NCBI GenBank assembly: GCA_002104535.1
Contig: NBOG01000001.1
Span: 1 to 62,848, forward strand
Origin: Cognaticolwellia sediminilitoris
GTDB taxonomy: Bacteria > Pseudomonadota > Gammaproteobacteria > Enterobacterales > Alteromonadaceae
DNA: 62,848 nucleotides
Direction: 5' to 3'
Part shown: piece after piece, positions 2,573 to 10,180 of the stretch
How the letters are laid out: each line of letters starts with the position of its first letter
Position numbering within the stretch: the first letter of the stretch is position 1
Made by a program: the position numbers and the translations under genes
The notes under the pieces: model-generated
Told to the model about the DNA's origin: nothing
The model's database searches: none
The model's input: only the letters and a program-made list of their open reading frames with translations

Positions 2573-2648
2573 TGGTCGGTCGTGAAGGATTTGAACCTTC
2601 GACAAATTGGTTAAAAGCCAACTGCTCTACCAACTGAGCTAACGACCG
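2573..2648 (-). tRNA. tRNA-Lys (anticodon TTT), copy 3 of 3
   Basis: A 76-base tRNA on the minus strand. The acceptor stem CGGTCGT pairs with ACGACCG, the D loop is AGCTCAGTTGGTAGAGC, the anticodon loop CTTTTAA holds TTT, the T arm is normal and CCA is encoded. It is identical in sequence to the copies at 2725 and 2846 and lies furthest downstream in the array. Reads AAA and AAG. Confidence 0.96.
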
Positions 2649-2724
2649 ATAAACTACTTTTAATTTTAGATGTAACTATGAAATGTTGAATGACAACCAT
2701 TTTACTTTTAATATTAAGTAAAAG

Positions 2725-2800
2725 TGGTCGGTCGTGAAGGATTTGAACCTTCGACAAATTGGTTAAAAGCCAACTGCTCTACCAACTGAGCTAACGACCG
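2725..2800 (-). tRNA. tRNA-Lys (anticodon TTT), copy 2 of 3
   Basis: Identical over 76 bases to the tRNA-Lys genes on either side, with a complete cloverleaf, anticodon TTT and encoded CCA. The spacer to the next copy downstream is 76 bases, and a short AAGTAAAAG sequence follows the 3' end of both this copy and copy 3, so the duplication unit extended beyond the tRNA. Confidence 0.96.
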
Positions 2801-2845
2801 TCATATATTCCAAAACAAATGCCAACCACTTTCATTGGTAAAAAG

Positions 2846-2921
2846 TGGTCGGTCGTGAAGGATTTGAACCTTCGACAAATTGGTTAAAAGCCAACTGCTC
2901 TACCAACTGAGCTAACGACCG
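2846..2921 (-). tRNA. tRNA-Lys (anticodon TTT), copy 1 of 3
   Basis: First of three identical tRNA-Lys genes in transcription order, just downstream of cpoB. It has a complete cloverleaf, anticodon TTT and encoded CCA. E. coli also has a lysine tRNA cluster between ybgF and nadA, so the position is ancestral. Confidence 0.96.
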
Positions 2922-7204: not shown

Positions 7205-7888
7205 TTAGCCGTGCTGCTCTGTCGCAGTTTGTCGCTGTAAAATACTCGAAAACTCTTCCATAAAATTACCGTAGCTGTTTTCTAGTTTTTCAACATTGTG
7301 GCTAAAACGGTTAAATGCCATTACCGCAGGGATTGCTGCAAACAAGCCCATTGCTGTTGCTATTAAAGCTTCTGCAATACCAGGAGCGACCATAGCAAGC
7401 GTTGCTTGTTCAACGGCACCTAAAGCGATAAAAGAATTCATGATGCCCCAAACTGTACCGAATAAACCAATATAAGGACTGATAGATCCAACTGTGGCCA
7501 TAAAAGGTAAATGAGTTTCTAAACTGTCGACTTCTCTTGAAAGTGCAACACGCATTGCTCGATGAGTACCATCGACAATAACTTGTGGCGCATATGCATG
7601 CGACTTACGCAACCGAGCAAACTCTCGAAACCCTGAAACAAAAAGGTTTTCTATGCCATCTATATGTTCTTTAGCAGATACTTCACTATAAAGCTTACTT
7701 AAATCTGCACCACTCCAAAATTTGTCTTCGAAACTTTGCAGTTGCTCACGGGCAGCAATCAACACCTTCCTACGCTGAAAAATCATAGTCCAACAGGCGA
7801 TTGAAAAGCCCAATAATGTCAACATTACCAATTTAACTAATAAACTGGCTTGTAAAAATAAATCAAAAAATGAGAGTTCAGCTGACAC
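7205..7888 (-). CDS. tolQ: Tol-Pal proton channel subunit TolQ
   Basis: MotA/TolQ/ExbB family inner-membrane protein that makes the pentameric ring around TolR. 227 residues with three membrane helices at about 14-34, 130-155 and 165-190. The signature region [13 protein letters not shown] is near residue 138, followed by the glycine-rich third helix [21 protein letters not shown]. The start is GTG with AGGAG nine bases upstream, inside the end of ybgC. The 11-base overlap with ybgC points to coupled translation. Confidence 0.97.
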
Positions 7889-8288
7889 GTTTTAATGCTC
7901 CTAAAATGCTTTTTGGGATAATACAAGGTTTAGCAATAGACAAATTAACACAGGCGACTTTAATTTCAGCCGTACAAAGGGTTAACTGATTTTGGTTAAC
8001 AAGTTGCTGAGAAAATACCACACTAGCAGATTTTAATCGGCTTATTGTTGTGGTAATAGTCAGCAAGTCATCGAGTTTTGCCGAAGCTTTGTTGTCCATA
8101 GCAACCTTTGTGACCACAAAGCCGATGTTTTGTTCTAAAAATTTTGACTGATTAATACCAAGCGCTCGTAACCATTCAGTACGGGCACGTTCAAAAAACT
8201 TTAAATAATTAGCATAATAAACGATACCACCAGCGTCGGTATCTTCATAGTAAACACGGATATCGTGTTGATAATTGTTTAATGTCAT
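7878..8288 (-). CDS. ybgC: Tol-Pal-associated acyl-CoA thioesterase YbgC
   Basis: Hot-dog fold thioesterase of the 4HBT family, linked to phospholipid handling near the Tol motor. 136 residues. The catalytic motif [24 protein letters not shown] (split here as YYEDTDAGG and [13 protein letters not shown]) is at about 13-36, with the aspartate of DTDAGG as key residue. First gene of the ybgC-tolQRAB-pal-cpoB operon, as in E. coli. No strong ribosome binding site is visible before ATG 8288, but the alignment to the family start is good. Confidence 0.94.
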
Positions 8289-8570
8289 TAAATTTATTTA
8301 CATTAACCTAGTATAAAATTTCTTGCTCATATCATAATAGATAAAGCTTACTACGGACAAGGCCTATGACACTTTCTTTATCGCAATTTCAACATTATTT
8401 TTAATAATAATTTAGTCTTTAAAATAACCTCAAAATTTTGTCACCATTTAGCGACAAAAATAAGCTAGATATAGAGATAAAGGTAAAAACACTTCGCATT
8501 AGTTTTTCTAATGATTAATATAAAAAATTTTCGGTTGATTAGATTTAATGTTCGCATTAAAATATCGTTG
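8289..8570. other. Intergenic region upstream of ybgC and the sRNA
   Basis: About 280 AT-rich bases with no convincing frame. It must contain the promoter of the ybgC-tol operon on the minus strand and the upstream part of the sRNA promoter region on the plus strand, but no single -35/-10 pair stands out for ybgC. Confidence 0.4.
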
Positions 8571-8573
8571 TTT

Positions 8574-8589
8574 TTTGAGCTAGCGCACA
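8574..8589 (+). promoter_or_regulatory. Candidate CRP-binding site
   Basis: TTTGAGCTAGCGCACA matches 12 of 16 positions of the CRP core consensus TGTGATCTAGATCACA, including most of both half-sites (TTTGA and GCACA). Its centre lies about 83 bases upstream of the start inferred for the sRNA at 8665, a distance at which CRP can activate. Read by eye only. Confidence 0.45.
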
Positions 8590-8652
8590 AATTTTGTTTT
8601 ACATGATTTATTTAGCCCATGAATGTTTTAAATAGGTGTAGTTACCTTTTGC

Positions 8653-8658
8653 TATGAT
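8653..8658 (+). promoter_or_regulatory. Extended -10 promoter element for the sRNA
   Basis: TATGAT is preceded by TGC, giving the extended -10 form TGnTATGAT. No good -35 is seen 17 bases upstream, as is usual for activator-dependent extended -10 promoters. The predicted start is near 8665. Confidence 0.5.
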
Positions 8659-8664
8659 TTATTT

Positions 8665-8736
8665 CCTAGGAACCTCCTTTCCTTCTTTAACTTATATTCT
8701 AAGTTGGCCCACATAGTTTTATGTGGGCTTTTTTTT
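8665..8736 (+). ncRNA. Predicted Hfq-type small RNA, CyaR-like
   Basis: A stand-alone 72-base transcription unit in a gene-free region. It has the extended -10 at 8653, an unpaired pyrimidine-rich 5' segment with CCTAGGAACCTCCTTTCC, a small hairpin (AACTTA 8689-8694 with TAAGTT 8700-8705), and a strong terminator hairpin (8707-8728) with eight Ts. The 5' segment resembles, from memory, the conserved AGGAACCACCUCCUU stretch of enterobacterial CyaR, a CRP-activated sRNA that blocks ribosome binding sites (ompX, luxS, nadE in E. coli). CCUCCU is complementary to Shine-Dalgarno sequences. A CRP-like site lies upstream at 8574. Expression, the exact start and homology are not shown by the sequence; the terminator and promoter geometry are the firmest parts. 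Confidence 0.55.
8707..8736 (+). terminator. Rho-independent terminator of the sRNA
   Basis: GCCCACATA (8707-8715), loop GTTT, TATGTGGGC (8720-8728), then eight Ts. Nine perfect stem pairs. It faces the plus strand, where no protein gene lies upstream, which is the main argument for an sRNA. Confidence 0.9.
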
Positions 8737-8848
8737 ATTTAAAATCTGACTGTTAGCTGCCATAAATGTTTTTGCTAAATACATTAGCTATTTCAACCTA
8801 AACATCTTATTGCTTCATCTTTTGTGTATTTGATTTAATTGCACCAAA

Positions 8849-8863
8849 GGCGACTGAAGTCAC
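8849..8863. repeat. Degenerate GGCGAC palindrome
   Basis: GGCGACTGAAGTCAC followed by ACCTACAAG is a decayed form of the hairpin GGCGAC-TTCA-GTCGCC with its flank CCTACGAA seen intact at 62811-62826. One copy of a short dispersed palindrome family. Confidence 0.5.
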
Positions 8864-8945
8864 ACCTACAAGAAATAAAGATTGCTGCCATCAATAATTT
8901 CAACATCAACCTGTGCCACTAATTTATTCGCCTCGGTAAAAAGCA

Positions 8946-9015
8946 GTTGTCAGCTCTCAGTAAAAAAATATTAACTAATCCCTATTTTTAGCCTTTAACT
9001 GATAGCTGACAGCTT
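8946..9015. repeat. MITE-like element with inverted ends, copy 1
   Basis: TGTCAGCTCTCAGT near 8948 and ACTGATAGCTGACA near 8998 are inverted repeats matching at 13 of 14 positions, around about 36 AT-rich bases. The right end (8997-9015) is identical over 19 bases to 62603-62621, where a similar bracketed arrangement occurs. There is no coding capacity. Together they look like a miniature non-autonomous element or REP-like unit. Confidence 0.5.
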
Positions 9016-9087
9016 TAAGCTAAAAACTTACACTTCGCTGCTCTTTCGTAGGGGAAAATTTATTCGCCGTAGTACAAACAGAGAAAA

Positions 9088-9103
9088 GGCGACTAACGTC
9101 GCC
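9088..9103. repeat. GGCGAC palindrome
   Basis: GGCGAC-TAAC-GTCGCC, a perfect six-pair hairpin with a four-base loop, of the same family as 62811-62826. TCGTAGGGG, the usual flank, lies about 40 bases away at 9045-9053, split from it by other sequence. Confidence 0.55.
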
Positions 9104-9175
9104 CAAAAAGGTCTAAAAGCAGCTTGGTGATTTAACTAAATGTAATCTAGCTGATTAAAATATCTCACAAATGAA

Positions 9176-10180
9176 TTAGCTCGGAAAATCTAAGCCAAAA
9201 TGAAGGTAAGCTCGGCTAGTCGCTATGCGTCCTCTTGGGGTTCGTTGTAAAAAGCCTTGCTGTATTAAATAAGGTTCGAGTACATCTTCAATTGTTTCGC
9301 GTTCTTCGCCGATAGCTGCGGCAATATTATCAAGGCCGACGGGGCCACCCGAAAATTTATCAATAATAGCTTCAAGCAGTTTTCGATCCATTAAATCGAA
9401 ACCTTCATTGTCAACTTCTAACATATCTAACGCGCTGGCCGCTGTTGATTTTGTGACAATGCCATTGGTTTTAACATCGGCATAATCACGCACTCTTCGA
9501 AGTAAGCGGTTGGCAATACGCGGGGTACCACGAGAGCGCCTTGCGACTTCAAATGCACCTTCTTTATCTATATCTAAGTTAAGAAAGTGTGCCGATCTCA
9601 TAGCTATTTCTGTTAATTCTTGAGTATTGTAAAACTCTAACCGTTGCACAATACCAAAGCGATCACGTAGTGGTGAGGTTAATGCTCCTGCTCTCGTCGT
9701 TGCACCAATTAAGGTAAAAGGCGGCAAATCAAGTTTTATTGAACGAGCAGCAGGTCCTTCTCCTATCATAATATCTAACTGATAGTCTTCCATCGCTGGA
9801 TATAAAATTTCTTCAACAACAGGGCTTAAACGATGAATCTCATCGATAAACAAGACATCATTTTCTTCTAAATTTGTCAATAATGCGGCTAAGTCACCCG
9901 CTTTTTCTAACACTGGTCCTGATGTGGTACGTATACTTACGCCCATTTCATTAGCAACAATATTGGCTAGTGTTGTTTTTCCTAAACCTGGCGGACCAAA
10001 AATTAATAAATGATCAAGTGGCTCTTGTCGCTTTAAGGCTGCCGCTATAAAAATTTCCATTTGAGATTTAACATGTTGCTGACCGGTATAGTCAGAAAGC
10101 ATTTTCGGCCGAATAGCGCGGTCGATAGTTTCATCTTCGCGACTGGCTATGGGTTCTATTAATCGGTCTGCTTCTATCAT
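9176..10180 (-). CDS. ruvB: Holliday junction branch migration helicase RuvB
   Basis: AAA+ motor that drives branch migration with RuvA and hands junctions to RuvC. 334 residues, family-typical. Walker [12 protein letters not shown] is at about 62-72, Walker [10 protein letters not shown] near 110, sensor 1 in LIGATTRAG near 156, and the arginine finger region in SPLRDRFG. The C-terminal winged helix ends with [17 protein letters not shown]. It starts 50 bases after ruvA with AAAGAG upstream of the ATG. Confidence 0.98.

Follow-up and report, generated by a model that had tools for sequence, protein, structure and literature searches.

A conserved small RNA gene predicted between ybgC and ruvB in Cognaticolwellia and its relatives has a GcvA-type box and gcvB-like promoter spacing

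INTRODUCTION

In enterobacteria, vibrios, and pasteurellae, GcvA activates the small RNA GcvB (Rfam family RF00022). The accessible part of one report states that Escherichia coli GcvA activates gcvB at high glycine and, together with GcvR, represses it at low glycine, and defines the GcvA consensus site as "T-N11-A containing a 5'-CTAAT-3' sequence" (PMC3658693). A large effect of GcvA on gcvB fusions is described in the accessible part of a second report (PMC1557403), and that of a third gives the R1 and R2 seeds as common to all GcvB RNAs and places gcvB divergent from gcvA (PMC9409037).

Here we describe an intergenic locus in a 62,848-nucleotide stretch of Cognaticolwellia sediminilitoris DNA (the window, whose first letter is position 1). 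An initial annotation of this stretch had proposed an undescribed small RNA of about 72 nt starting at 8665, controlled by CRP and carrying a CyaR-like seed. The presence of an undescribed small RNA is well supported by a conserved promoter, body, and terminator; what that annotation missed is a GcvA-type box with a gcvB-type promoter. From comparison of the sequence with those of relatives, we think it likely that the locus encodes a GcvA-activated, Hfq-type, trans-acting small RNA that would stand in for GcvB in Colwellia and its family (f1 below), from which GcvB itself seems to have disappeared.

RESULTS

The ybgC-ruvB gap holds a conserved element

The small RNA gene is flanked by ybgC (7878-8288, minus strand) and ruvB (9176-10180, minus strand), and the program-made ORF list of the window has no ORF of 50 amino acids or more in the gap, which agrees with the gene-free setting initially described. 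The features of the locus are as follows.

8498 to 8512, no strand assigned: GcvA-type (LysR) box ATTAGTTTTTCTAAT, T-N11-A with CTAAT on both strands, center at about −65 (exact match; conservation)
8535 to 8563, plus strand: predicted promoter with −35-like TTGATT (8535-8540), 17-bp spacer, and −10 TAAAAT (8558-8563) (hexamer scan, geometry, conservation)
8570 to 8736, plus strand: predicted small RNA gene, 167 nt (start placed from E. coli gcvB spacing; end at the T run)
8576 to 8619, plus strand: 5' hairpin SL1 with lower stem, 5'-side bulge GCGCA, and upper stem (fold; covariation)
8634 to 8647, plus strand: small hairpin, variable in relatives, GGTG...TACC in the window (by eye; extent in the window uncertain)
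8662 to 8672, plus strand: C/U-rich stretch 1, TTTCCTAGGAA, which is TTCCCTGGA in many relatives (alignment)
8678 to 8685, plus strand: C/U-rich stretch 2, TTTCCTTC, candidate seed for pairing with GAAGGAA-type Shine-Dalgarno sequences (conservation)
8688 to 8706, plus strand: hairpin before the terminator, TAACTTA/TAAGTTG (fold; retained by eye)
8706 to 8736, plus strand: intrinsic terminator with eight Ts (terminator scan; RNAalifold on 30 sequences)

A BLAST search with 8560-8745 found matches in all 16 other genomes of the genus (E of 3.3e-17 or better) and weak matches in other genera. Mean pairwise identity within the genus was 0.75 over 8497-8569, 0.77 over 8570-8736, and 0.92 over the terminator; over the right flank (8745-9160) it was 0.12. 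In the left flank (8290-8496), the average rises to 0.56 owing to a conserved segment at 8319-8398. This segment, with identities of 0.69 to 0.80 in the genus, lies ahead of ybgC on the minus strand and is perhaps the ybgC/tol promoter. Elsewhere in the window, three consecutive tRNA genes (2576-2921, minus strand) have identical Rfam scores of 74.1 bits each.

Four terminator-like sites were found in 8000-9400 against 0.9 expected, and the most paired of them, with 10 pairs, is 8706-8736, the strong terminator with eight Ts already noted in the initial annotation. RNAalifold, run on an alignment of 30 sequences, gave this terminator nine pairs, five of them with changes on both sides, and recovered it alone, probably missing SL1 because the apical part of that hairpin varies in length. 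The fold of 8665-8737 reached −21.7 kcal/mol (z = −5.2; none of 200 shuffles equaled it), much of it supplied by the terminator; over the whole of 8570-8736, the fold stands out less (z = −2.5; 4 of 200 shuffles).

We extended the comparison to 57 orthologous elements drawn from the loci examined and from the ruvB flanks of 60 further genomes, each defined by a terminator and a box of no more than two mismatches. The spurious locus L085 was dropped, and L106 was reanchored by hand. Fifty-four elements come from family f1, two from f16, and one from f20; those of f16 and f20 rest on position, box, and terminator, with no match to the covariance model described below. The flanking genes ybgC and ruvB were both present at 28 of 30 loci examined (our own and 27 others), and L035 and L037 had neither. 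The locus almost certainly holds a real small RNA gene.

The promoter has the geometry of gcvB

The box at 8498-8512 has a mean pairwise identity of 0.95 across the 17 genomes of the genus, the highest of the blocks compared, and the −10 follows with 0.92. Among the 57 elements, for which the finder admitted up to two mismatches, the box had no mismatch in 42, one in 8, and two in 7. The TTGATT/TAAAAT pair matches 9 of 12 consensus positions, and such hexamer pairs occur at chance frequency (7 found, 5.7 expected).

The distance from box to −10 in the window is 45 bp, identical to that of E. coli K-12 gcvB, where the box is ATTAGTTTTTTTAAT, the −10 is TATAGT, and transcription starts 7 bases past the end of the −10. 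The best −10 lay 43 to 47 bp after the box in all 57 elements, with ties broken toward 45 bp and one element set by hand. When the preference for 45 bp was removed, the −10 profile still peaked at 45 bp (3.5 of 6 matches, compared to 2.7 at 44 bp and at most 2.4 elsewhere). Nine canonical GcvB loci from other families of the order had boxes with zero to two mismatches and a best −10 at 45 to 46 bp; the GcvB loci L046 and L047, from genomes with no gcvA match, were left out of this test.

Exact boxes occur at six places genome-wide, compared to 10 for a reversed control pattern, so the box alone is no evidence, and its conservation and geometry carry the case. Only one other site in the genome is spelled identically, and it precedes the gcvA orthologue by 76 bp (NCBIfam GcvA, 463.8 bits against a cut-off of 288). 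Based on these sequence features, we regard control of the small RNA promoter by GcvA as highly probable.

Transferring the E. coli gcvB start spacing places the start at 8570 and the center of the box near −65, where LysR activators usually sit. A start near 8570 is thus very probable, and it is likelier than one at 8665 because the box at 8498-8512 and the −10 at 8558-8563 are conserved and the "extended −10" invoked for the shorter RNA is poorly so.

The predicted RNA has a covarying 5' hairpin and two C/U-rich stretches

The 5' hairpin SL1 is built as UCUGAGCUA, the bulge GCGCA, the upper stem, and UAGCCAGA. The sequence of the upper stem varies among relatives, yet its pairing is kept: in the 20 of 57 elements with a recognizable motif, a run paired with its own partner gave 5.3 pairs, compared to 4.1 when partners were taken from different species, and none of 5,000 permutations reached this difference. 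Downstream of SL1, the small hairpin seen in relatives is less clear in the window, whose single-sequence fold pairs 8634-8647 in another way.

C/U-rich stretch 1 has one of four spellings in 42 of the 57 elements. Stretch 2 is more uniform, with TTTCCTT in all 17 genomes of the genus, TTCCTTC in 40 of 57 elements, and TCCTT in 52. Five shortened elements of 101 to 118 nt (L072, L081, L091, L095, and L108) and a still shorter one found by eye (L078) keep the box and the C/U-rich core and have lost most of the 5' hairpin. The shortened elements suggest that the 3' half may be the working part of the RNA.

The element is widespread in family f1

An exact pattern consisting of ATTAGTTTTTCTAAT, 48 to 74 bases, and TGAGCTAGCG occurs in 22 named stretches, and its carriers include Colwellia, Cognaticolwellia, Thalassotalea, Thalassomonas, and Rheinheimera. 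We built a covariance model (model R1) from 30 elements, with the window sequence among the training rows; it pairs the terminator only and is mostly a sequence profile. Searched against our own genome, it matched this training sequence at 8570-8736 with 134.8 bits (E = 2.7e-21).

At an E value of 0.1 or less, model R1 matched 55 of 59 f1 genomes and 3 of 39 others in a set of 98, and 52 of the 55 matches lay in the ruvB flank. The three exceptions were a match beside ybgC, 6 kb from ruvB (G031); a match 5 kb from ruvB with no box of one mismatch or fewer in the 4 kb examined around it (G029); and a match on a contig other than that of ruvB, with a one-mismatch box (G035). The f1 genomes missed were G022, G024, G050, and G053; the first three have elements recognizable by eye, truncated in G024. 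G053 is the one complete f1 genome with no gcvA match, and the small RNA is missing from it too, a single case. Outside f1, elements that share the core and have a box with one mismatch are seen in f15 (G072 and G096), and G077 (f20) has an element by eye, yet no box upstream of gcvA.

In a second set, at an E value of 0.01 or less, the model matched 237 of 295 f1 genomes, covering 46 of 52 genera. At least 207 of the 237 genomes lie outside the training set; the positions of matches were checked in the 98-genome set. Of the 58 f1 genomes with no match, a few were inspected by eye. Nearly all matched genomes have one match each.

GcvB and the ybgC-ruvB RNA have a complementary distribution

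No RF00022 match was found in our own genome at an E value of 1 or less. Across the 98 genomes, RF00022 exceeded its cut-off of 42 bits in none of the 59 f1 genomes and in 10 of the 39 others, and model R1 had no match in those 10. GcvB lies divergent from gcvA in eight of the 10 (G062, G066, G067, G069, G075, G078, G090, and G091); the other two, G065 and G089, have no gcvA match at an E value of 1e-95 or less. In G093, a GcvB just below the cut-off is likewise divergent from gcvA. Two f2 genomes (G059 and G084; loci L214 and L215) carry GcvB-like RNAs with the R1 seed, divergent from gcvA and below the RF00022 cut-off; true GcvB RNAs that have diverged seem to escape the Rfam model. Three tandem weak RF00022 matches in G052 (L058, C6 about 1589700-1590340), beside a tRNA-like sequence identified by eye, look like a repeated terminator-bearing element and not GcvB.

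The G/U-rich R1 seed was absent from all 57 elements, whether sought as TGTTGTG or as GTGTTTGC; the shorter TTGTGTT occurs in three. The R2 (Con-II) core ACTTCC is found in 15 of 57 elements, the window's RNA not among them, and a longer R2 was not seen by eye. A profile of the 57 elements stripped of the terminator scored only 1 of 12 canonical GcvB RNAs (E. coli, −3.2 bits, where 1,200 shuffles reached 6.7 bits and their 95% point lay at −4.3), and a GcvB profile scored none of the 57 elements. With profiles negative in both directions, we do not claim homology of the RNA body to GcvB.

The slot divergent from gcvA keeps the promoter in f1

Our own gcvA lies on a different contig from the small RNA (G000:C29:144038-144952). 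At 29 f1 loci, the promoter divergent from gcvA has a box with no mismatch in 28 and one mismatch in the other; the best −10 follows after 45 bp at 25 of these loci and after 48 bp at the remaining 4. The exact box was present at 28 of the first 30 f1 loci and a one-mismatch box at one more; at L183 (G047), gcvA apparently lies at a contig end, and its upstream region was not assessable. Of 10 further f1 loci, nine carried a box of one mismatch or fewer, and G041 carried none. TGTTGTG was not found in the divergent slot at the f1 loci with a box. In part of the Colwellia group, a TTGTTTGCA string follows the gcvA box; it was considered as an R1 seed remnant and rejected: its place is not kept in other genera by eye, and it can pair with an upstream CAAACA.

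In our own genome, the slot holds a leader and an 88-amino-acid ORF, and by eye most other f1 loci are similar. The leader (G000:C29 about 145028-145250; L153 1501-1720), with orthologues among L154-L182, reads AUAGAUGAAGGAC...CCCAAC...GUCC...CAUCUAU, with complementary ends, a small secreted-looking ORF, and a GcvA-type box. The Colwellia group shares leaders of this kind with several further f1 genera, and no Rfam family matched at gathering in 11 such loci. A structured leader not yet described is one possible reading, and a second RNA under GcvA control is another.

Transporter start regions show no convincing complementarity

We compared the RNA with the start regions of AGCS alanine/glycine symporter genes and DppA/OppA-type (SBP_bac_5) genes from seven genomes and found no convincing complementarity in 27 regions: one had a P value below 0.05, as chance expects. 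The 27 came from 29 matches, two pieces of one broken gene in G008 being left out. Start codons were chosen by a simple rule and the pairing had no accessibility term, which makes this a weak test. Since the R1 seed is absent, the regulon need not resemble that of GcvB.

DISCUSSION

The alternative that fares best is that the RNA descends from GcvB itself: a copy of the gene would have left its place next to gcvA for the ybgC-ruvB gap, shed the R1 seed, and diverged. It would have retained the promoter, the 5' hairpin together with the bulge on its 5' side, and a CUUCC stretch like R2; by eye, the 5' hairpin, the small hairpin, the C/U-rich stretch, and the terminator follow one another in a similar order. 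Matches to the whole RF00022 model at the locus in G017 (20.2 bits), G042 (28.8 bits), and G058 (26.0 bits) also point this way, but they fall below threshold and within the range of weak matches in the same genomes, for example 29.3 bits elsewhere in G042. The negative profile comparisons, the different position, and the missing R1 seed argue against descent, and no intermediate between GcvB and the ybgC-ruvB RNA was found; we consider this origin unlikely, though not negligible. That an unrelated RNA replaced GcvB is somewhat likelier than that GcvB gave rise to this one. We tentatively suggest a non-orthologous replacement in Colwellia, Thalassotalea, Rheinheimera, and most of the family, an outcome that we rate at somewhat under even. 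In this scenario, the GcvA promoter logic was kept, the role of GcvB passed to an unrelated RNA with different seeds at a fixed and distant site (ybgC-ruvB), and the old gcvB slot came to hold the leader and the small secreted-looking protein, still under the same box.

For the GcvA-activated RNA that we favor, transcription would be switched on by GcvA occupying the box at 8498-8512, some 65 bp ahead of the start, by analogy with E. coli when glycine is plentiful. The U run of the terminator would load Hfq, whose gene is present in our own genome. Single-stranded C/U-rich stretches, chiefly UUUCCUUC and also UUUCCU(A/G)GGAA, would then pair with Shine-Dalgarno regions and block translation of a set of mRNAs. 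Judged on its sequence, the RNA is rather probably a base-pairing regulator acting through these stretches, and the chance that its targets form an amino acid or nitrogen regulon is about evenly balanced.

The same GcvA promoter could instead drive a sponge for another small RNA or an RNA-binding protein. No target was found in the 27 start regions, and the SL1 bulge GCGCA, well conserved in one group of elements, is not an obvious anti-ribosome-binding-site sequence. A sponge is nevertheless improbable: base-pairing RNAs typically have what is seen here, conserved C/U-rich stretches that are single stranded and a terminator with a long U run.

The 72-nt RNA from 8665 with CRP control and a CyaR-like seed is very improbable, although a shorter processed 3' form of the longer RNA could occur. 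The CRP-type site at 8574-8589 (TTTGAGCTAGCGCACA) does exist, with two mismatches, but such matches number 30 in the window against 30.1 expected. It falls inside the conserved transcript, overlapping the 5' strand of SL1, and a score of 8 of 10 or better for the CRP consensus within the first 26 nt is reached by only 1 of the 56 other elements. The extended −10-like sequence TGCTATGAT (8650-8658) is also real, but its identity of 0.53 is the lowest of seven segments compared in the 17 genomes of the genus, and the relatives indicate the longer RNA, 8570-8736, under another promoter. As to the seed, AGGAACCTCC is present at 8668 as stated but recurs in just 1 of 57 elements; AGGAACC is found in 7, the same 7 of the 17 elements of the genus, and the AGGAACCACCUCCUU-type seed of CyaR is not conserved. 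For the seed proposed initially, then, the terminator is conserved and the seed is not, while a different stretch, TTTCCTTC at 8678-8685, is.

That the element is a mere terminator or cis element of a neighboring gene is scarcely credible despite its intergenic position, since it points away from ybgC, ruvB approaches on the other strand and has its own terminator-like site at 9104-9087, the promoter, 5' hairpin, and body are all conserved, and in G035 the element and its box lie on a contig apart from ruvB.

If the proposed replacement of GcvB is correct, a large marine family that keeps gcvA and the box would show cleanly how a regulator can exchange one small RNA for another, and would offer a testable model of seed and regulon turnover. 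Lying over the cut-off of no family in Rfam release 15, the RNA would be one to annotate in at least 237 genomes. In searches that covered few subscription papers, we did not find GcvB together with Alteromonadales, GcvB with Colwellia, or ybgC and ruvB with a small RNA. The accessible parts of the literature on small RNAs and Hfq in Alteromonas, GcvB in Shewanella or Pseudoalteromonas, Colwellia small RNA transcriptomes, and GcvB evolution or seed loss in Gammaproteobacteria make no mention of the ybgC-ruvB locus.

Among described families, none exceeded its cut-off in 8500-8800, nor over threshold at eleven relatives' loci. The best subthreshold match was Spot 42 (RF00021), with 32 bits against a cut-off of 80, resting mainly on the terminator and the neighboring hairpin; a separate Spot 42 over the cut-off exists in 8 of the 98 genomes, one of them in f1 (G035). 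Weak matches to MmgR/suhB (RF00519) and anti-hemB (RF02837) in L083, L089, and L070, all below the cut-off, share a C/U-rich stretch followed by a terminator and probably reflect shared composition rather than descent. The likeness to CyaR (RF00112) is confined to the short AGGAACC string in the window's own copy; CyaR is absent among 20 Rfam matches at an E value of 10 or less, the seed is unconserved, and there is no sign of CRP control. GcvB is the closest described system. The ybgC-ruvB RNA falls below the Rfam cut-off for GcvB, lacks the R1 seed, and sits between ybgC and ruvB rather than beside gcvA, but it has the size class of GcvB, a 5' hairpin with a 5'-side bulge by eye, and a C/U-rich stretch before the terminator, and it resembles GcvB above all in its control region, with a GcvA-type box spaced 45 bp from the −10.
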